From: Brochothrix thermosphacta DSM 20171 = FSL F6-1036
GTDB taxonomy: Bacteria; Bacillota; Bacilli; Lactobacillales; Listeriaceae
NCBI RefSeq assembly: GCF_036884295.1
Contig: NZ_CP145608.1
Location: forward strand, 1,674,001 to 1,738,000
DNA: 64,000 nucleotides
Direction: 5' to 3'
This document shows, piece by piece, positions 50,360 to 60,731 of the stretch (the stretch's first letter is position 1; the number at the start of each line of letters is the position of its first letter). The translations under genes were made by a program, and so were the position numbers. The notes under the pieces are model-generated. The model was not told the origin of the DNA. It made no database searches and saw only the letters and a list, made by a program, of their open reading frames with translations.

Positions 50360-51451
50360 TTAACGGCTACGTTTATAAAACGTTTTAGGTACTTTAACAG
50401 CATTTAACAAGCGTTTTCGTACTTGAATTTCAAATGTTTCTTCTTTGAAAACATCATGGTTGACCAATGCTAACGCAATGCTCTTTCCTAATGTTGGTGA
50501 TTGTGTCCCAGTAGTAACTACACCCACTTCAACTCCATCTTTCAACACAGGATAACCATGTCGCGGCACACCTTTATCAACTAATTCTAAACCGATAATA
50601 CGACGCATTTTACCTGTAGCTTTTTGATCAATCAATGCTTGCTGACCAATAAATTGAGGCTCTTTATCTAATTTGACTGCAAAACCTAAGCCTGCTTCTA
50701 GAGGTGAAATTGTTTCAGAAATTTCTTGCCCATATAATGATAAGGCAGCTTCAAAACGAAGTGTGTCTCGAGCCCCTAAACCAATCGGTTTCACATCATC
50801 TAATCGTGCAAAAAATTGCCATAACTCTAAGGCAGCTTCACTATTCATATATATTTCAAAACCATCTTCCCCTGTATATCCTGTGCGTGACACAATCACT
50901 TGATGACCTTCAATCATAACGTTCCCATCAAAATAAAATGGTTTCATATCATCAATAGGACGATCTGCATAACGTTGGACAATCGCTACTGCATGAGGCC
51001 CTTGGATTGCTATTTGTCCATATTCATCTGACACATTCTTTACTGTTACGTCAAAAGCATCAGCATGACTAGCTAACCATTGATAATCCTTTTCTGTGTT
51101 TGACGCATTCACAACTAGTAAATAATTTGTTTCTGAATGACGATAAACAATTAAATCATCTACACAACCACCATCTTCATAACACATAATGTTATATTGA
51201 GCTTGATTATCAGACATTTTACTTAGATCATTTGATAACAATTTTTGCAAGAAAGGTAGTGCATCATTGCCTCTTACTGTAATTTCACCCATGTGAGAAA
51301 CATCAAAAAGCCCCGCAGCTTCACGCACTGCTTGATGTTCTTCTTTTATCCCACTAAATTGGACAGGTAATTCCCATCCTCCAAAATCAATTGTTTTGCC
51401 GCCAAATTCACTATAACCCGCAAAAATCGGCGTGTGTTTTAACTCACTCAT
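50360..51451 (-). CDS. gcvT: Aminomethyltransferase (T protein)
   Basis: 363 residues from ATG at 51451 (AAAGGGGAC upstream; the apparent upstream extension runs into the riboswitch terminator). FAGYSEFGGKTIDFGGWELP, LFDVSHMGEI, YNIMCYEDGGCVDDLIVYR, SRTGYTGEDGFEIYM and GLGARDTLRFEAALSLYGQE bind the folate and aminomethyl group. It transfers the methylene to tetrahydrofolate. First gene of gcvT-gcvPA-gcvPB; no gcvH here. Confidence 0.96.
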   Translation of the reverse strand: MSELKHTPIFAGYSEFGGKTIDFGGWELPVQFSGIKEEHQAVREAAGLFDVSHMGEITVRGNDALPFLQKLLSNDLSKMSDNQAQYNIMCYEDGGCVDDLIVYRHSETNYLLVVNASNTEKDYQWLASHADAFDVTVKNVSDEYGQIAIQGPHAVAIVQRYADRPIDDMKPFYFDGNVMIEGHQVIVSRTGYTGEDGFEIYMNSEAALELWQFFARLDDVKPIGLGARDTLRFEAALSLYGQEISETISPLEAGLGFAVKLDKEPQFIGQQALIDQKATGKMRRIIGLELVDKGVPRHGYPVLKDGVEVGVVTTGTQSPTLGKSIALALVNHDVFKEETFEIQVRKRLLNAVKVPKTFYKRSR

Positions 51452-51490
51452 GGCTATGTCCCCTTTCAAAAGTTGCTTATTCTTCGCACA

Positions 51491-51531
51491 GAACAAAAAC
51501 AAGGACGCACAAAAAAACTGTGCGTCCCTGT
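51491..51531 (-). terminator. Riboswitch-controlled terminator
   Basis: Minus strand GGGACGCACAG-TTTTTTT-GTGCGTCC then TTGTTTTTG, between the glycine aptamer and gcvT. It should form when glycine is low. Confidence 0.88.
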
Positions 51532-51532
51532 T

Positions 51533-51650
51533 TTCCTGATCTTACATCAGAATTTCAGAGGCGTAACACGCATCGATCCTTTTGCCTGAGAGTTTCATGA
51601 GGATTCATTTGCCCCTTCGGCGATGCTTGCGCATTCTCTCGCGATACGTT
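51533..51650 (-). promoter_or_regulatory. Glycine riboswitch, single aptamer
   Basis: On the minus strand the conserved core is present: GCGAGAGAATGC (about 51632-51645), GCATCGCCGAAGGGGCAAAT, then AAACTCTCAGGCAAAAGGAT (51575-51595). Only one full aptamer is seen before the expression-platform terminator; many glycine riboswitches are tandem. It controls the glycine cleavage operon, turning it on at high glycine. Confidence 0.92.
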
Positions 51651-51679
51651 ATTCCACTAAAAGTATTTCTAACACTTCA

Positions 51680-51789: not shown

Positions 51790-51821
51790 AAAGTTCGCTT
51801 TTTAGATAAAAAGGACATTAT
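51790..51821 (+). promoter_or_regulatory. Possible ComK-type AT boxes upstream of comGA
   Basis: AAAG-TTCGC-TTTT (51790-51802) and AAAA-GGACA-TTAT (51809-51821) resemble two AAAAN5TTTT half-sites, each with one mismatch, 6 bp apart. Weak match; the position before comGA is the reason to note it. Confidence 0.35.
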
Positions 51822-51870
51822 TTGTACATGTCGAATAGGTAAGTTAACAAAATACCGAGGAGGTCGTCTT

Positions 51871-52869
51871 ATCGATATCGCCAAAATCTGTAACAATCTA
51901 ATTACAATGGCCTTAAAAAACAAGTACAGCGATATTCATTTCACTCCTAAAACGACCCATTACGCGCTTTATTTCCGCTCAAATGGAACACTTTCTTTTT
52001 TACAGAAGCTTTCACTTGAAATTTCTGAGCGTTGCATTACCTTTTTAAAATATAATAGTGGTCTTGATATTGGTGAACAACAACTTCCACAAAGCGGTCG
52101 TTATGAGTGGCCAGAGCTGACCGGAGTTTCAATTCGCATTTCTGTCATCCCTAATTATCGCTCATTGCCTTCATTAGTACTGCGATGTGTGTCACCTGTT
52201 CATCAATTACCACTTGCACTTTTTCAATATCAGGAAGCAAAATTAAAAGATTTAATCGCTCAGAAAAGTGGCTTACTACTTTTCAGCGGTGCAGTCGGAA
52301 GTGGTAAAACAGCAACGATATACAGCTTGTTAGAATATATCTCCCAAAAACCCTATAAAAATATCTTAACCATTGAAGACCCTGTTGAAATCCCCTCGCC
52401 TTTTCTCACTCAGTTTCAAATCAATCAAACTGCCGGCTTTTCTTTTGACGTTGCCTTACGCGCTACTTTACGACATGACCCTGACATCCTAATGATTGGT
52501 GAAATACGCGATAGTGAAACAGCTAAAATGGCGCTTCGGATGGCCTTGACGGGTCATCTTGTCGTCGCAACCATTCACTCCTCTCATTCACTTGGTGTTC
52601 TTTATCGTTTAAAAAACCTTGGATTACCACCAACAGATTTAAAACAAGCTTTACTCGCTATTATTTCCCAAAAATTTGTCCCGATACAACACCACTTGGT
52701 ACAACGCGCACTAATTTATGAAATACTCACAAAACCTGGGTTAACTTCTGAAATTTTATCCAATCGGCTCACCTTTAACGCTTTATACCAGAAGGGAGTT
52801 CTGTATGGCGTTATTCCAAAAACAACGGACAAAAAAATTCCAAGCGCTTTTTCTCCAACAGCTGAGTGA
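51871..52869 (+). CDS. comGA: Competence traffic ATPase ComGA
   Basis: About 332 residues if begun at ATC 51871, 320 from the first ATG (51907). AGGAGG lies seven bases before the ATC. The 12 extra in-frame codons read IDIAKICNNLIT, aligning with the N-terminus of Bacillus ComGA, so the ATC looks like the real start. GspE family: Walker A FSGAVGSGKTATIYSL, Asp box TIEDPVE, Walker B ILMIGEIRDSETA and His box TGHLVVATIHS. The C-terminal cysteine cluster of Bacillus ComGA is missing. It powers assembly of the DNA-uptake pseudopilus. It overlaps comGB by 65 bp. Confidence 0.92.
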   Translation: MDIAKICNNLITMALKNKYSDIHFTPKTTHYALYFRSNGTLSFLQKLSLEISERCITFLKYNSGLDIGEQQLPQSGRYEWPELTGVSIRISVIPNYRSLPSLVLRCVSPVHQLPLALFQYQEAKLKDLIAQKSGLLLFSGAVGSGKTATIYSLLEYISQKPYKNILTIEDPVEIPSPFLTQFQINQTAGFSFDVALRATLRHDPDILMIGEIRDSETAKMALRMALTGHLVVATIHSSHSLGVLYRLKNLGLPPTDLKQALLAIISQKFVPIQHHLVQRALIYEILTKPGLTSEILSNRLTFNALYQKGVLYGVIPKTTDKKIPSAFSPTAE

Positions 52870-53824
52870 TTTGCTGCATAACGGTTTAGCACTGGATCAC
52901 GCCTTAGCTTTTCTCACACGTATCCATCCGCAACAAGCTATTTTCTTTGCTAGTTTAAAAAAAGAACTCACAAACGGCGCCAGCTTTGATCGGTGTTTAG
53001 ATACATTACATTTCCCGGCTATTATCTGCTCACAGTTACACTTTGCCCAAACGCATTTACAATTTACCGAAACGCTCAAAAACTGTGCCGAGGGGTTAAA
53101 TTTCCAATTGCAACAAACACAATTTATTCGCCGCTTCATCCAATATCCTGCCGTTCTTTTTGTGCTACTTAGCGGTGTTATTTTAGTTTTACAAGCCTTT
53201 GTCGTCCCACAGATTGAAATGTTGTTCATACACACAAATGCGCCGCCTCCTGCAATTTTTAACCTTTTAAAATATGCCCATTTTTGGTTATTAGGTTCTG
53301 TGTGCATCACATTGCTTCTTATCTTTTTTTTCAAACAATGGCTTCAACAAAAAAACGCCTATCAACGTGCACTATTTTGGTGTCGCTTTCCTCTAACACG
53401 CAGACTCATGCCTTATTATTACACTCATTTATTTGCCCGTGAATTTGCACTACTTATCAAAAGCGGCCTCTCATTACAAAAAATCCTGAAGCTGAGCAGT
53501 ACTTCACATTATGGATTATTCAACCACATTGCGCGTCACATCAATGACGGCTTATTACAAGGGCTTCCTTTTGCCACACTTTTAAAAAATCACCCCTTGT
53601 TCCTACCCTTACTAGCAATTGTCATCCAACACGGGGAAGCAAGCGGCTTTTTGTCACAGGAACTAATGGCCTGCCATCGTTATTGTGAACAACTCCTCAA
53701 ACAACGGTTGCAGAAAATTGTCGGTTTAATTCAACCCTTGTTATTACTGTTAGTGGGCGGTTGTATTATTATCATTTACCTGAGTATCATGTTGCCATTA
53801 TTCGAAACAATTGAATATATTTAA
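52805..53824 (+). CDS. comGB: Competence pseudopilus platform protein ComGB
   Basis: 339 residues. GspF/PilC family: an N-terminal cytoplasmic domain (LQQLSDLLHNGLALDHALAF), three membrane helices (about 118-142, 160-180 and 310-333), and a repeat of the cytoplasmic domain (FAREFALLIKSGLSLQKIL). Ribosome site AGAAGGGAG inside comGA. In other Firmicutes comGC-GG follow directly; here a terminator follows, and those genes lie on the opposite strand. Confidence 0.93.
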   Translation: MALFQKQRTKKFQALFLQQLSDLLHNGLALDHALAFLTRIHPQQAIFFASLKKELTNGASFDRCLDTLHFPAIICSQLHFAQTHLQFTETLKNCAEGLNFQLQQTQFIRRFIQYPAVLFVLLSGVILVLQAFVVPQIEMLFIHTNAPPPAIFNLLKYAHFWLLGSVCITLLLIFFFKQWLQQKNAYQRALFWCRFPLTRRLMPYYYTHLFAREFALLIKSGLSLQKILKLSSTSHYGLFNHIARHINDGLLQGLPFATLLKNHPLFLPLLAIVIQHGEASGFLSQELMACHRYCEQLLKQRLQKIVGLIQPLLLLLVGGCIIIIYLSIMLPLFETIEYI

Positions 53825-53832
53825 AATGTAAA

Positions 53833-53887
53833 AAAAACGTTTGCCTTAGCCCCTGTTTCTCGGCTAATATGCAGACGTTTATTTTTT
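53833..53887. terminator. Shared terminator between comGB and comGG
   Basis: AAACGTTTGCCTTAGCC...GGCTAATATGCAGACGTTT then ATTTTTTT on plus, and A-rich (T-run on minus) on the other side. It sits at the left boundary of the inverted comGC-GG block. Confidence 0.8.
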
Positions 53888-54079
53888 TAACAACTGATTC
53901 ATTTCTTTGAGTCCTTTTTTTATTTCTGTGTGATATTTTTTAGTCAATTCAGATTGTGCTGTTCGTTCAATCCGAGCAAGAGATACAATACCTACAATAA
54001 TAAGTGAACATAATAAAATACACCCAATAGCATAAACATAAACAAAACCGTTACTGTTTCTTTTACGTTTTGATCTCAT
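53879..54079 (-). CDS. comGG: ComGG-like competence protein
   Basis: 66 residues from ATG at 54079 (AAGGGCG eight bases upstream). A basic start (RSKRKRNSNG) and one membrane helix (FVYVYAIGCILLCSLIIVGIV), then a helical charged tail. Prepilin-like in layout, lacking the clear GFTL motif. Identified by position as the last gene of the comGC-GD-GE-GF-GG string. It overlaps comGF. Shorter than Bacillus ComGG (about 124). Confidence 0.7.
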   Translation of the reverse strand: MRSKRKRNSNGFVYVYAIGCILLCSLIIVGIVSLARIERTAQSELTKKYHTEIKKGLKEMNQLLKK

Positions 54080-54512
54080 ATAAGCCACGCCCTTGCTTAA
54101 CCAAAAACCAATGAATCGTTGTTTTCTTTTTTTCAAAATAACTATCTTTAGAAAAGATATCATGCAACAAAGTAATATTTCCACCGTTAGTTGCTTTTAA
54201 CATTAACTTATCATTTTTCAATGTGAAAGTAAGCGTCTCAGTATTTTCAAGTTGCCATTTCATCGTTTTTGCAGATAAATCAATTTTTTTAACCGCTTGT
54301 TTTTCTGTTTGTAAATAGAGCACTAGCATGTGCCATTCCATATCTGCTTGTCGTTGTAACCACCGTTCATGAACTTGTGTAATGCCAAACATTACGCTTA
54401 CTGCCACCTTTAAAAAAACGGGCAATAATATTAATGCTATCAGACATTCAACGAGTGTGAAGCCATTCTTTTTCAACTTTTTGCTCTGTTCCTGTCCATC
54501 GTACTGTTCCAT
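54063..54512 (-). CDS. comGF: ComGF-like minor pseudopilin
   Basis: 149 residues. Type IV prepilin-like start KKNGFTLVECLIALILLPVF with Glu at +5, the site cut and methylated by ComC. The soluble domain (YLQTEKQAVKKIDLSAKTMK through to GGNITLLHDIF) fits ComGF. Overlaps comGE by 65 bp and comGG by 17 bp. Confidence 0.85.
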   Translation of the reverse strand: MEQYDGQEQSKKLKKNGFTLVECLIALILLPVFLKVAVSVMFGITQVHERWLQRQADMEWHMLVLYLQTEKQAVKKIDLSAKTMKWQLENTETLTFTLKNDKLMLKATNGGNITLLHDIFSKDSYFEKKKTTIHWFLVKQGRGLYEIKT

Positions 54513-54774
54513 TTTCCACCTCGATTTGCCATTGCGCGCCTATTTTATTTATCTGCCAACGATAATCCTGTTTATCAATTTGCATCACTCCTTTAGATTC
54601 AGTTGCTTCCCCTAATTGTTGCAACATAACTGCTAAAAGCTGATTATCCACTTTCACGTCATTCAAACTACGTTCACTGATGACAAATAATCCAACAAAC
54701 ATGCTGGCACATAAGATAATCAATACGAGCGCAAACAACTGTTCAATCAATAGGAAACCGTTCTGTTTTTTCAA
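54448..54774 (-). CDS. comGE: ComGE-like minor pseudopilin
   Basis: 108 residues. KKQNGFLLIEQLFALVLIIL is a prepilin-type leader with the conserved Gly/Phe and Glu. The rest is short and beta-rich, ending EKEWLHTR. Overlaps comGD (32 bp) and comGF (65 bp). Named by position and leader. Confidence 0.82.
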   Translation of the reverse strand: MKKQNGFLLIEQLFALVLIILCASMFVGLFVISERSLNDVKVDNQLLAVMLQQLGEATESKGVMQIDKQDYRWQINKIGAQWQIEVENGTVRWTGTEQKVEKEWLHTR

Positions 54775-55195
54775 TGCGTATTCGCCCCCATTTAATATGC
54801 ATTATTAGTCGATAAGTGAAATAGTTATCCTCAAAAACAAGTGTATTAAACTGATTAACTTCGCCGTTTGAATTATAGTGATAACGTTGCTTTGCCACTT
54901 TTACTTTTAAATCACTGTACTGTTCTGCAAAAATATTTTCTTCTGCCGATACGACTCTTTGTTCTTGTTTCACTAAATCATAAAACACAAACATATCACG
55001 CTGATCAGTGAGTGCTTTTATCTGAGCATACTGATGGTGTAATATACTGCGTTTCAATGAAAATTGCGCTGACATTTGCGAACGTATTTGTTCACCTCCA
55101 TGGATTGTATAACCAACCATCATCGTTACAATCACCAACACTACTAAAACCTCCAACAACGTCATTCCTTGCCTACTTAATACTGACATTCCCAT
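54743..55195 (-). CDS. comGD: ComGD-like minor pseudopilin
   Basis: About 150 residues from ATG at 55195 inside the comGC end; a second ATG at 55189 is equally possible. SRQGMTLLEVLVVLVIVTMM is the prepilin leader with cleavage after Gly. The following domain (RSQMSAQFSLKRSILHHQYA, FVFYDLVKQEQRVV) suits ComGD. Translation is coupled to comGC. Confidence 0.86.
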   Translation of the reverse strand: MGMSVLSRQGMTLLEVLVVLVIVTMMVGYTIHGGEQIRSQMSAQFSLKRSILHHQYAQIKALTDQRDMFVFYDLVKQEQRVVSAEENIFAEQYSDLKVKVAKQRYHYNSNGEVNQFNTLVFEDNYFTYRLIMHIKWGRIRIEKTERFPID

Positions 55196-55475
55196 TAGTT
55201 GAGATGATAATTTCACGTTGATCTGCACACTGATTTTGTCCCACTTTTAAATAGCCACGTGCTATTAGTTGTTCCATCGTAGGAACGTTTCCATCATCCA
55301 TTTGATATGCCATCACCTGATTTTCAATCATTTGACGTTGTGCCTCACACCCCTTACCTTGTGCAGATTCAGTGTGTTGCATAACATTTGGGAGTATCAA
55401 TAATAACAATGCTGAAATAATAATTAACACAATTAACATCTCAATGAGTGTAAACCCATTCTTTTTTCTACGCAT
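55173..55475 (-). CDS. comGC: ComGC major competence pseudopilin
   Basis: 100 residues. KKNGFTLIEMLIVLIIISAL is a perfect prepilin peptidase site. The two cysteines of the mature domain (GKGCEAQ and QNQCADQ) match the disulfide of ComGC. NQVMAYQMDDGNVPTMEQLI is family-typical. Strong ribosome site AGGAGGAGGAGAG. It starts the minus-strand comGC-GG block, 155 bp after the trhP2 stop, instead of following comGB on plus. Confidence 0.93.
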   Translation of the reverse strand: MRRKKNGFTLIEMLIVLIIISALLLLILPNVMQHTESAQGKGCEAQRQMIENQVMAYQMDDGNVPTMEQLIARGYLKVGQNQCADQREIIISTNGNVSIK

Positions 55476-55590
55476 CTCTCCTCCTCCTCTCCCTTCTTAT
55501 TATTGTTCTTGCCGCACTAATAGCTCTCCTTTCAATCGGCTAAGTTTGAAATTTGCGGCCTCTACCTCATTTATAAGCACCTCTTTGCGA

Positions 55591-55622
55591 ACAAAAAAAC
55601 TCACCCAAGTTGGGTGAGTTTT
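55591..55622 (-). terminator. Terminator after trhP2
   Basis: Minus strand ACTCACCCAACTTGGGTGAGT followed by TTTTTTG. It implies comGC needs its own promoter in about 55480-55590. Confidence 0.85.
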
Positions 55623-55630
55623 AGAGTAGA

Positions 55631-56866
55631 TTATTTCTTTTTACGAATCATATCGCCCGGACTCACTGGTTGTGAAACGGGCATATAAACGGGCATCATC
55701 GCATTGGGCGCTCGGTCAATCACTTCGTTATCTTCATTGCGCATACTTGTAATGATTTGTGAAAAGTGTTTGAATCCTGGGCCATAAAACTCGACTTCGT
55801 CTTCTACACTAAAGGCATTTCGTTGTTGCACAGTTGCTATTTTAGTTTGTTCATCATAGGCTAACACTTGTCCTACAAAGGCATAGACCGGTATCTTACG
55901 ACGCGGTCCAAACAACTGCTCGTTTTCTGATGGTCGTTGGTAATAAAACCCACTGGCTAATTCACGCTGTGCCACTTTCCATAATTCATCAATCCATTCT
56001 TGCTTACAGATATAATTTTCCGGATCTGCCATATAACTATCAACAGCCGCTTTGTAAACATTAGATACGGTTGATACATAATGAATTGATTTCATTCGTC
56101 CTTCAATTTTGAAACTGTTCACTCCATTTTGAATCAGATCAGGAATGTGTTCAATCATCGCCATATCGACTGAACTCATTGAAAAGGGTTCAACCTCAGT
56201 TCCTTGTGAGGTTAATGAACGTCTCTCTCCTGCCATTGGTAAATCAAATAAATCATATTTCCAACGACACGATTGCGAACAACCACCACGATTAGCATCA
56301 CGTTTCGACATATGGTTTGATAAAACGCAACGACCTGAATAAGAAATACACATGGCACCATGAATAAATGCCTCAATTTCAAAATCCGTGTTTTCACGCA
56401 TCTTCGCTATTTCTTCCATTGATACTTCACGTGCTAAAACAACACGCTCTAACCCTTCATCTTGCCAATAATTCAACGTCTCATAGTTAGTCGCTGAGGC
56501 TTGAGTTGATAAATGGACAGGTAACCCTGGCGCATCTGTAATACAAATTTCAATCAAAGCAGGATCCGATACAATCACAGCTGAAATCCCAATATCACGT
56601 AATTCTCTAAAAAAAGCGCCCGCTCCAGCAGCATCACCTTCGTGCGTGACCATATTGGCAGCAACATATACTTTTGCTTGATGTTCTTTGGCGTATGCAA
56701 CACCTTCACGCATTTCATCGTAGGTGAAGTTTCCAGCACGAGAACGTAAGCCATAGGCCTCTCCACCAATATAAACAGCATCTGCACCATAATGAATAGC
56801 TGTTTTTAATTTTTCTAATGTTCCTGCGGGTGCTAAAACCTCAGGTCTAATCAATTCTTTTTTCAT
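55631..56866 (-). CDS. trhP2: U32-family tRNA hydroxylation protein TrhP2 (YrrO-like)
   Basis: 411 residues. Peptidase U32 collagenase-like: RPEVLAPAGTLEKLKTAIHY at the N-terminus, the signature EAFIHGAMCISYSGRCVLSN followed by cysteines in RDANRGGCSQSCRWKYDL (iron-sulfur ligands), then FKIEGRMKSIHYVSTV. Homologues in Bacillus act with TrhP1 in prephenate-dependent 5-hydroxyuridine formation at tRNA position 34. The usual partner trmR (yrrM) is not adjacent. Confidence 0.88.
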   Translation of the reverse strand: MKKELIRPEVLAPAGTLEKLKTAIHYGADAVYIGGEAYGLRSRAGNFTYDEMREGVAYAKEHQAKVYVAANMVTHEGDAAGAGAFFRELRDIGISAVIVSDPALIEICITDAPGLPVHLSTQASATNYETLNYWQDEGLERVVLAREVSMEEIAKMRENTDFEIEAFIHGAMCISYSGRCVLSNHMSKRDANRGGCSQSCRWKYDLFDLPMAGERRSLTSQGTEVEPFSMSSVDMAMIEHIPDLIQNGVNSFKIEGRMKSIHYVSTVSNVYKAAVDSYMADPENYICKQEWIDELWKVAQRELASGFYYQRPSENEQLFGPRRKIPVYAFVGQVLAYDEQTKIATVQQRNAFSVEDEVEFYGPGFKHFSQIITSMRNEDNEVIDRAPNAMMPVYMPVSQPVSPGDMIRKKK

Positions 56867-56878
56867 ACTGACACACTC

Positions 56879-57799
56879 CTATTTCACTTCTTCGGGATCC
56901 ATTAAGAAGAATCCAGTATCGATGCTACGTTCTTGTGGATGTAATACCTGCAATTGGCTATCAAATTCAACTAAATGTTGTTCAGTTAATTCGCCTTTTT
57001 CTAGCAGTTTTTTCACACCAACGAATAATTCTGCAATTGCTACAAAAGCTGATTCTGATACAAACAAACCGTCTAATTTCCACGATGTAATATTGATGGC
57101 GCTTAAACGATCCATATAGCCCATCAAATTGACATCATGATTCGCAAAAATATGCGTACCATTCACGTCTTCATAAATTGAATACTGTGTATCTTTTTTA
57201 CGCGGCTCTGAGATAAACAACCCTCGTTCTTTACCAACTGATTCATCTGTCTTAACGTAATTAAGATAATTTTGAATGAGCGGTCGTCGCGATTGATGAA
57301 TACAAGCAGCACCATAGACTAAAAATGTCGCAGGAACTTCTAATGCTGGTGTTAGTTTAACAAGTTCTTCGTATGGGACTTCATGAGCCAACATACCACC
57401 CACAGCTCCACGTTTTGCCCAAAAATTAATTTGGCGTGCACTTACTACCATTGTTTGTGCATCATAAATATAAGGTAGCGCGTATTCAGGTTGCTTCATT
57501 ACCTGAAAAACACCAGGGTCTCCTGCCATAATTTCATCTACACCGATTTTCTTTAAAAAGGCTAGATAATCAGGAATCGCTTCCATTTGCTGATTATGCA
57601 TCAAACTATTAACCATTACACAAACTTTCGCATCATATGTATGCGCTAACTTCACTAATTGTTCTTGTTCTATTCGATTGAATGACTGCCCTAATCGTAA
57701 ACCAAATTGATCTTCCCCAAATAAAAGTTTATTCACACCGGCTTTTAACAACGCCTCAGCTTGTTCCAACGATTTAATCGTTGTGCTGATTTCTATCAT
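56879..57799 (-). CDS. trhP1: U32-family tRNA hydroxylation protein TrhP1 (YrrN-like)
   Basis: 306 residues. Shorter U32 protein: SLEQAEALLKAGVNKLLFGE, VNSLMHNQQMEAIPDYLAFL, EIMAGDPGVFQVMKQ and FLVYGAACIHQSRRPLIQNY. It lacks the long C-terminal part of TrhP2. Twelve bp upstream of trhP2, forming a two-gene unit. Confidence 0.86.
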   Translation of the reverse strand: MIEISTTIKSLEQAEALLKAGVNKLLFGEDQFGLRLGQSFNRIEQEQLVKLAHTYDAKVCVMVNSLMHNQQMEAIPDYLAFLKKIGVDEIMAGDPGVFQVMKQPEYALPYIYDAQTMVVSARQINFWAKRGAVGGMLAHEVPYEELVKLTPALEVPATFLVYGAACIHQSRRPLIQNYLNYVKTDESVGKERGLFISEPRKKDTQYSIYEDVNGTHIFANHDVNLMGYMDRLSAINITSWKLDGLFVSESAFVAIAELFVGVKKLLEKGELTEQHLVEFDSQLQVLHPQERSIDTGFFLMDPEEVK

Positions 57800-58011: not shown

Positions 58012-58977
58012 TTAGACTTCTGTTAACACTAATGAAGCGGCACCGATCATACCTGCATCATTGCCTAATGTTGCTAATGAAATTTTCGTACTGTGTTTCA
58101 CTGTGCTGAAAACATTTTTTTCAAACTCATCGCGAACAGGATCTAAAAGAATATCGCCTGCTGCTGAAACACCACCACCGATAACAATGCATGCTGGATT
58201 TAAAATATTACCAATATGACTTAAGGCAAAACCGAGGGCAGATGACACATAAGCTACAACTTCTTCTGCAAAAGGATCATACCCTTTTGCTGCATCAAAT
58301 ACATCTTTTGCTGATACTCGATTGTTCAATAAGACATCATCGCGTAATTTTGAGTTTGCTTTTGATGTGGGGGCTTTATGGCGTGCAACATGCATAACGC
58401 CTGTTGCAGAAGCAATTGTTTCTAAACAGCCACTTTTACCACACGTACAAGCAAAGCCATTTTCACGCGCAACAGTGACATGTCCAATTTCGCCACCTGC
58501 TCCTGCAACACCACGAACGATACGGTTATTCGCAATAACACCACCACCAACACCTGTACCAAGTGTCACAAAAACAACGTCTGGTTCACCGCCACCCGCA
58601 CCTTTCCATGCTTCACCTAATGCTGCAACGTTTGCATCATTGTCTAAAAAGACCGGTAAACCTGTTAGTGCTTGAAGCGACTTACTGATTGGCTGCACAG
58701 TTGTCCAATTAAGGTTGAATGCATTAACAACCGTTCCATCCGTATAATTGATTGAACCAGGCGTTCCCATTCCAATACCTGTGATATCACTTTTAGAGAG
58801 CTTTAATTCTGCCAGTTTCTCATTTAATGAATAGGCGATATCACCGACGATATGTGAGCCTGCGTCACTAATATTTGTTTTAATGGACCATTTTTCTTCA
58901 ATCTCACCTTTAGTACTTACCACTGCAAATTTAACGGATGTCCCACCGACATCAATACCTATTAATTTTTTAACCAT
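58012..58977 (-). CDS. glcK: Glucokinase (ROK family)
   Basis: 321 residues. IGIDVGGTSVKFAVV (phosphate loop), GIGMGTPGSIN, FLDNDANVAALGE with the catalytic Asp, TLGTGVGGGVI, EIGHVTV and the ROK zinc motif CTCGKSGCLE. It phosphorylates glucose that enters without PTS. It overlaps yqgQ by 16 bp, the conserved gluP-yqgQ-glcK order. Confidence 0.95.
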   Translation of the reverse strand: MVKKLIGIDVGGTSVKFAVVSTKGEIEEKWSIKTNISDAGSHIVGDIAYSLNEKLAELKLSKSDITGIGMGTPGSINYTDGTVVNAFNLNWTTVQPISKSLQALTGLPVFLDNDANVAALGEAWKGAGGGEPDVVFVTLGTGVGGGVIANNRIVRGVAGAGGEIGHVTVARENGFACTCGKSGCLETIASATGVMHVARHKAPTSKANSKLRDDVLLNNRVSAKDVFDAAKGYDPFAEEVVAYVSSALGFALSHIGNILNPACIVIGGGVSAAGDILLDPVRDEFEKNVFSTVKHSTKISLATLGNDAGMIGAASLVLTEV

Positions 58978-59183
58978 ACGCCTATTCCCCCATTTTCTTC
59001 TTCACGCAAGGCACCAAGTAGTACCAGTCGTGCAGATGCATATTCTTTTGAATCAATTAGCTTATGGTCCCATAATTCTGTCACTTCAGCCAACATCATT
59101 TGTAAGCTAGCTGTGCGGTTACCGACATAAATAAAGGCACCAAATTTTTTCAATAGTTGTTGGACATCGTAAACGTTATTCAT
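58962..59183 (-). CDS. yqgQ: DUF910 protein YqgQ
   Basis: 73 residues, helical: YDVQQLLKKFGAFIYVGNRT and EVTELWDHKLIDSKEYASAR are the YqgQ pattern. The C-terminus encodes GGIGVWLKN through the glcK start. Function unknown. Confidence 0.9.
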   Translation of the reverse strand: MNNVYDVQQLLKKFGAFIYVGNRTASLQMMLAEVTELWDHKLIDSKEYASARLVLLGALREEENGGIGVWLKN

Positions 59184-59201
59184 TGCTAAACACTCCTCAC
59201 C

Positions 59202-60731
59202 TTATTTGGCTGTGCGCAATTTATCATACAGATCCTTATATGAGGCGACATTACTTTGTTCACTTGCTTTTTTAGCTGCAGAAGTCGCTTGTTTTAACTG
59301 ACCTTCTGCTTGATAGGCTAATGCAAGGTTATAATACGCTTCTGGAAACTGTGGTTCTTTCTCAATTGCCGCTTGATAATTTACAATTGCCGCTGTGGTT
59401 TGATTTTCTTTCAACAATAGATTCCCCGCAAAAAAATCGCTTACATTATCATTATAGTTATTTTTTTGCATTACGCCAATGACTTTTTTTGCTTCAGCTG
59501 TTTTACCATGTTCCATATAATTGACTACAACTGAGTTTCCCGTGTCAGGGTTAGTGCTTTGATTCACATTGCGGAACCCGAGCATGATGAAAAATCCGAT
59601 AATCACTAGGGTAATTAGTGTATATCCCCAGCGTTTCCAATCAAAGTATTGGCCTTTAATCGCCACGATATAGGCAGCTAATAAACCACCAATTAAACCA
59701 CCGATATGGGCATATTGATCAACACTTGAGACCACAAAACCGTAAACCAAGTTAATACCTAAAAGTAATAATACATTGACACCTAGCGTTTTCCAGTAAA
59801 TTTGTGGTTTTTTAATAATAAGGTACAACAAAGCACCGAACAAACCAAAAATTGCACCACTTGCACCGGCAGATAAACTGTCAGAGTATACAAAACTTGC
59901 TATAACACCTGTTAAACCAGAGACAAAATAGATGATGAGGAAGCGCCAGCCTCCAAATATTTTTTCAACCATCGTCCCTAGAATAAAGAGCGATACCATA
60001 TTCATCAACAAATGTGTCATTCCAATGTGTATAAACGCCGGTGTAATAAAACGCCACCATTCACCTGCAACAATCAATTCATTAACTTTCGCGCCAAACA
60101 AAGCTAATACATACGTATTTGTGCTTCCGCCCATTAAAGTCATCGCTAAAAATACTAACGCATTCATTGCAATTAACACATACGTCCATAAGAATTGATC
60201 TTTCCATGTTTTCTTCACAGGCGCTTTTACATTGACACTCATATGCGTCACCATGTTCATTTTCAATTTTTCAATTTCCATTTGTGTTTGCGCTTCAATG
60301 GGTAATAGTTCCTTACTTCCAAAAACAAAAACATCACTTAACTTATCGATATCTTCTTTTTGTGTATCCGTTGCAATCACATAGTTATTTACTAAAATCG
60401 CTTTATCTTTGCTTTCCTTCTGATAATTATAGGCGCCACTTTCACCTAAAGGTTTTTCAGATAAATAGATATTCGTCAATTGCAATTTTGGACGATTCAA
60501 TTCTTTGCGGAATTGATTCATCACATTAACCATTTGCTCAAAATCACGTTCAACAAGCACTTTCCAAGTGACGTCTCTTTGTGAGATTCGAATAATTGGG
60601 TTTTGTTTATTTTTCTGATTTTCAAGCCATACTTCTAATTCTTCCTCATTAAAATGAATAATTCGATAGCCCTCATCAATAACTAAATGGGATGTGGTAT
60701 ACCAAAAAAGATACTCTACTGATATTTTCAC
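59202..60731 (-). CDS. gluP: Rhomboid protease GluP (YqgP-like) with TPR tail
   Basis: 509 residues. An N-terminal soluble domain (about 1-170), then a seven-helix rhomboid core. The catalytic serine is in SAGASGAIFGLFG and the histidine in QYAHIGGLIGGLLAAY. FIHIGMTHLLMNMVSLFILG is the HxxxN region. A C-terminal TPR region (about 405-509, AEAKKVIGVMQKNNYNDNVS and FPEAYYNLALAYQAEGQLKQ) follows. It cleaves membrane proteins. GTG start with a weak ribosome site. Confidence 0.92.
   Translation of the reverse strand: MKISVEYLFWYTTSHLVIDEGYRIIHFNEEELEVWLENQKNKQNPIIRISQRDVTWKVLVERDFEQMVNVMNQFRKELNRPKLQLTNIYLSEKPLGESGAYNYQKESKDKAILVNNYVIATDTQKEDIDKLSDVFVFGSKELLPIEAQTQMEIEKLKMNMVTHMSVNVKAPVKKTWKDQFLWTYVLIAMNALVFLAMTLMGGSTNTYVLALFGAKVNELIVAGEWWRFITPAFIHIGMTHLLMNMVSLFILGTMVEKIFGGWRFLIIYFVSGLTGVIASFVYSDSLSAGASGAIFGLFGALLYLIIKKPQIYWKTLGVNVLLLLGINLVYGFVVSSVDQYAHIGGLIGGLLAAYIVAIKGQYFDWKRWGYTLITLVIIGFFIMLGFRNVNQSTNPDTGNSVVVNYMEHGKTAEAKKVIGVMQKNNYNDNVSDFFAGNLLLKENQTTAAIVNYQAAIEKEPQFPEAYYNLALAYQAEGQLKQATSAAKKASEQSNVASYKDLYDKLRTAK

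Follow-up and report, generated by a model that had tools for sequence, protein, structure and literature searches.

In the window, a stretch of 64,000 nucleotides from Brochothrix thermosphacta, the seven comG genes lie in two convergent units separated by a hairpin. The plus-strand unit comprises comGA, which encodes the pilus ATPase (51871..52869, with an apparent AUC start at 51871), and comGB, which encodes the pilus platform protein (52805..53824); the minus-strand unit comprises, from the hairpin outward, comGG (53879..54079, ATG at 54079), comGF (54063..54512), comGE (54448..54774), comGD (54743..55228, although translation may begin at 55195 or 55189) and the major pilin gene comGC (55173..55475). 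All seven frames are open, and the minus-strand block runs GC-GD-GE-GF-GG, as is normal, with overlaps of the usual kind; the window frames thus confirm the strands, order, overlaps and convergence described in the original prediction. The hairpin between the units (~53829-53889), absent from the list of an automatic terminator scan, is probably a bidirectional terminator, with a minimum free energy of −19.6 kcal/mol on the plus strand (z −4.9) and −17.8 kcal/mol on the minus strand (z −3.5). Upstream of comGC lie two U32-family peptidase genes (55631..57799, minus), separated from it by their own terminator hairpin (55596..55622, minus; z −5.5). The locus is bounded by two conserved flanks, gcvT (50360..51454, minus) on one side and glcK, yqgQ, and gluP (58012..60731, minus) on the other; a glycine-riboswitch-like sequence upstream of gcvT (51503-51660, minus) was recognised by eye.

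Family models support the identity of the principal components: ComGB and ComGC score above their NCBIfam cut-offs (255.2 bits vs. 240 and 100.2 bits vs. 75), ComGA falls just below its own (297.1 bits vs. 300), and the Pfam T2SSE and T2SSF models are satisfied by ComGA and ComGB. ComGD, ComGE, and ComGF each match their own model below cut-off. ComGG has no significant family-model match and is assigned as a minor pilin by position and by similarity to the sister locus (37-41% identity), that of G001, the only other genome of the genus compared, which belongs to another species (comG locus L033); ComGD, GE, GF, and GG all match this locus in tblastn. The window genome (G000) therefore carries the comG pilus gene set of ComGA ATPase, ComGB platform and ComGC major pilin, with its seven genes not in one co-directional operon, and it also encodes ComK, the prepilin peptidase (comC), ComEA, and ComEC, the comK, comC, and comEA-EB-EC frames all being open. 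A SigH-type gene occupies its customary position, flanked by yacP and nusG; its product scores below cut-off against both of its best models (179/294.8 and 200.6/212 bits).

When the window was compared with 20 loci around comGA from relatives, the order and strands of the G001 locus were the same throughout: gcvT minus, comGA and comGB plus, comGG to comGC minus, the U32 pair minus and glcK-yqgQ-gluP minus. Ten Listeria-family loci (L035-L044) have gcvT minus, comGA, comGB, and comGC plus, and glcK-yqgQ-gluP minus; in an eleventh (L034), foreign sequence is inserted in comGC. That the comGC-comGG block was inverted in place, as originally predicted, is borne out by these Listeria-type loci, in which comGC follows comGB on the same strand. 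Two accompanying claims hold in part: the pilin block alone is turned among the comG genes, but the U32 pair also sits between comGC and glcK, and the flanks have their usual orientation relative to the Listeria family only, as gcvT shares the comGA strand in 46 of the 120 surveyed loci that have comGA.

Because both genus genomes carry the same arrangement (G001 being the one other assembly of the genus available), the rearrangement is old and fixed in the genus and is not an artefact of assembly or a peculiarity of one strain. A local assembly inversion would have to have arisen both in the single-contig, 2.56 Mb window genome and in the separate assembly of the other species, where the locus lies on a 17 kb contig, and is extremely improbable. 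Only marginally less improbable is a phase-variable invertible segment, by which comGC-GG would flip orientation within living populations; the segment is compact and its internal order is kept, but there are no inverted repeats at its two ends and both species show the same orientation. Nothing convincing emerged when the breakpoints were searched for such repeats; within the window, the sole repeat pair that brackets the block measures 24 nt at 75% and lies in the comGB and comGC coding sequences. In G001, a 122-base unit is tandemly duplicated between comGB and comGG (L033 6560-6803). It was considered as an inversion agent and rejected; neither the window nor any other locus compared outside the G001 contig contains a match to it.

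The order of comG genes is nearly invariant across Bacilli. In a survey of 121 loci (the window plus sets of 20, 20, and 80, with at least two duplicates among them; the 80 are from named records, came from a ComGC alignment and include none of this genus), comGB and comGC point the same way in 116 loci and opposite ways in two, both of this genus. Foreign sequence interrupts comGC, which was not found, in two others (at ~11200 in L034 and ~3200-4850 in L152, the latter with an integrase-type gene), and one (L117) is without comGA and comGB. Among 70 further loci, eight of which repeat genomes of the first set, a same-strand pilin lies directly downstream in 67 and same-strand pilins lie further on in two; one (L249) has no pilin, and its stretch ends at a contig end. 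None of the 70 has opposite-strand pilins. A scan of genome contigs with ComGB alone gave no match. A search of open-licence PMC literature found no paper on this comG split; the arrangement is real, built of known parts and apparently undescribed.

The junction between comGC and glcK has changed in content as well as in orientation. In this genus it holds the relocated U32-peptidase pair, which in Listeria lies far away, at a distance of hundreds of kb (e.g., 912 kb vs. 1,281 kb in G019). Listeria-type genomes have a lipoprotein gene between comGG and glcK; a search for this gene, run without a positive control, gave no match in G000 or G001.

The reading favoured here, with a probability of roughly 0.55, is that an ancestral in-place inversion created two convergent pilus units under the same competence sigma factor. 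In the common ancestor of the genus, the comGC-comGG block would have flipped in place, the lipoprotein gene next to it would have been lost, and the U32-peptidase pair would have arrived at the same junction. The pilus would then be made from two units, comGA-GB for the motor and comGC-GG for the pilins, which meet at the common hairpin. Transcription of the pilin unit would begin in the short stretch that follows the U32 terminator, most likely at a sigma-H-type promoter of its own, which would place both units under the same competence sigma factor. This reading starts from what is seen directly, namely the arrangement in both genus genomes, the open window frames, a normal level of divergence and a genome that carries a SigH-type gene, comK, comC, and comEA-EB-EC. 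Its remaining parts (the promoters, their joint regulation and a working pilus) are inferred.

The comG operon of L. monocytogenes is transcribed from a sigma-H promoter (PMC4754846), and the sigma-H consensus was taken from the same report. In the window, a sigma-H-type promoter candidate for comGA (51810..51836, plus) consists of a 9-base and a 7-base element 11 nt apart, and a degenerate sigma-H-like site, not significant alone, lies upstream of comGC (55505..55532, minus) at a position homologous to a strong site in G001 (L033 8386-8412). The conserved core of the gap upstream of comGC is the block TTGAAAGGAGA, read as a −35 element. A small open frame noticed by eye in the same gap was discarded, as the sister species does not clearly preserve it. 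With a matrix built from 15 sites, some from the Listeria family and some published, and applied to 324,736 background positions, the window comGA site ranks first and the G001 comGC site third; the window comGC site scores 4.0 and the G001 comGA site 6.2, values that several control genes reach as well. Each species thus has one strong sigma-H site of two (comGA in the window, comGC in G001), and comEA, comC, and comK are without a good matrix-scored site in both species. Scanning with the published consensus alone gave no significant result at the four comG places in the two species (P = 0.093, 0.976, 1.000, and 0.125, the first of these at the window comGA), and P ≤0.05 in nine of ten Listeria-family control loci (L037 left out). 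A looser pattern, picked after the sites had been seen, has four matches genome-wide in G000, one of them at comGA (two with the reversed-pattern control), and three in G001, one of them at comGC (reversed-pattern control, one); none of the other five is placed as a promoter close before a gene. CGAATA, the −10 core as read here, is present ahead of comGA in 26 of the 108 loci, a count that tops those of all other 119 arrangements of its letters (next highest, 18). Matrix and pattern together point to a sigma-H promoter upstream of comGA in the window, a candidate only and one that is weak in G001. An ancestral sigma-H site may have stood before both units, each having since weakened in one species.

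These sites bear on the claim that the pilins must have a separate promoter and are thereby uncoupled from comGA control. A separate promoter is indeed needed, with read-through as an alternative; the uncoupling is not demonstrated, and the best comGC promoter candidate in G001 is sigma-H-type, like the candidate before comGA. Nor did a ComK box come to light: the scan gave nothing significant in any of the four regions upstream of the two units in the two species, although it misses some true cases, its controls reaching P ≤0.025 in five of seven Listeria-family loci and in none of three Bacillaceae. A less probable, though not negligible, alternative is that the inversion was fixed and the pilins are expressed either through transcripts that run on out of the U32 genes or from a vegetative promoter within the 120-base gap, truly uncoupled from comGA as originally predicted. 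The U32 pair does lie directly upstream of comGC on the same strand, TATAAA or TATTAT can be found by eye 17 nt past the T-run of the U32 terminator in both species, and the sigma-H-like site of the window comGC is weak; against this, a strong hairpin stands between the U32 genes and comGC, the T-run makes a poor −35 element, and the site before comGC in G001 is a good sigma-H match. In the reported B. thermosphacta transcriptome, comGC is described as induced in strain TAP175 and as not expressed in strain CD337 (PMC6856214).

Judged from its upstream sequence, comGA has an apparent AUC start in both species. No ATG, GTG, or TTG occurs in frame after the upstream stop and before the ATC (window 51871; L033 4513), and this ATC stands where Listeria has its ATG, preceded by a Shine-Dalgarno sequence; the first ATG of the window comGA, at 51907, is without one. 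Among the 92 of 119 loci that were testable (27 were left out), no canonical start lies 12-32 codons ahead of the motif in six: the two of this genus, three of Bacillaceae (L063, L064, and L069; two Rossellomorea and one Bacillus sp.) and L045, a probable false motif match. The open-licence PMC literature searched yielded nothing on an AUC start of comGA. It is conceivable, if doubtful, that the motor and pilin units are separately tuned, the AUC throttling the motor so that pilins are made without the full DNA-uptake machine; if this is true, the pilins could perhaps serve adhesion.

The same start codon could also mark a locus in decay, the inversion and the AUC being steps toward loss of function, an explanation that is likewise unlikely. 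In its favour are the AUC in both species, the reported lack of comGC expression in strain CD337 (PMC6856214) and broken frames in G001, where three of 12 com genes checked are affected (comGB and comGE in L033, comEC in L168), as is one of 18 other genes checked, gluP in L033. These broken frames, some of them at homopolymers, are draft errors or decay, which are inseparable because G001 is a draft, 85% complete and in 130 contigs. Decay is opposed by the intact state of all seven comG frames and of comK, comC, and comEA-EB-EC in the window genome, by the Shine-Dalgarno sequence kept before the AUC in both species and by comG divergence equal to that of Listeria pairs. Protein identity between the two genus members is 53% for ComGA, 46% for GB, 76% for GC, 44% for GD, 41% for GE, 39% for GF, 37% for GG, and 76% for GcvT, and the comG values fall inside the range of Listeria-family pairs with gcvT at 72-76%. 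The ratio of position-2 to position-3 changes for the genus pair is 0.18 in comGC, 0.34 in comGA and 0.08-0.31 in five flank genes; at 0.47-0.60 in comGD, GF, and GG, it indicates that the minor pilins evolve fast. The split pilus locus, on the favoured reading of two jointly controlled units, probably still works.

Listeria comGABCDEFG shares with the Brochothrix locus its seven genes, the pilin order, the gcvT and glcK-yqgQ-gluP neighbours and a sigma-H promoter before comGA (PMC4754846), but is a single co-directional operon rather than two convergent units, whereas here the U32 pair is inserted and the lipoprotein gene was not found. The comG loci of Bacillus and other Bacilli have homologous motor and pilin genes but, outside this genus, are co-directional in every surveyed locus that was readable. 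In Lactobacillus sakei and Staphylococcus aureus, a SigH-type factor likewise switches on comG (PMC3364868, PMC3486894), but through a single comG promoter region, where two candidate promoters are needed here. A lineage that split comG yet kept its genes suggests that pilus assembly needs no single transcript, and the split amounts to a natural experiment on whether the dosage of motor and pilins has to stay coupled.

The inversion also altered the relation of the pilin genes to replication. On the window plus strand the GC skew is negative, and three positions within the first 0.9 Mb of the genome give positive values; because these signs are opposite, the plus strand is the lagging strand at the window. 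The skew around comGA has the same sign in 11 Listeria-family loci. After the inversion, the pilin genes are on the leading strand, co-directional with replication, and comGA-GB stayed head-on, which makes a replication-orientation hypothesis testable.
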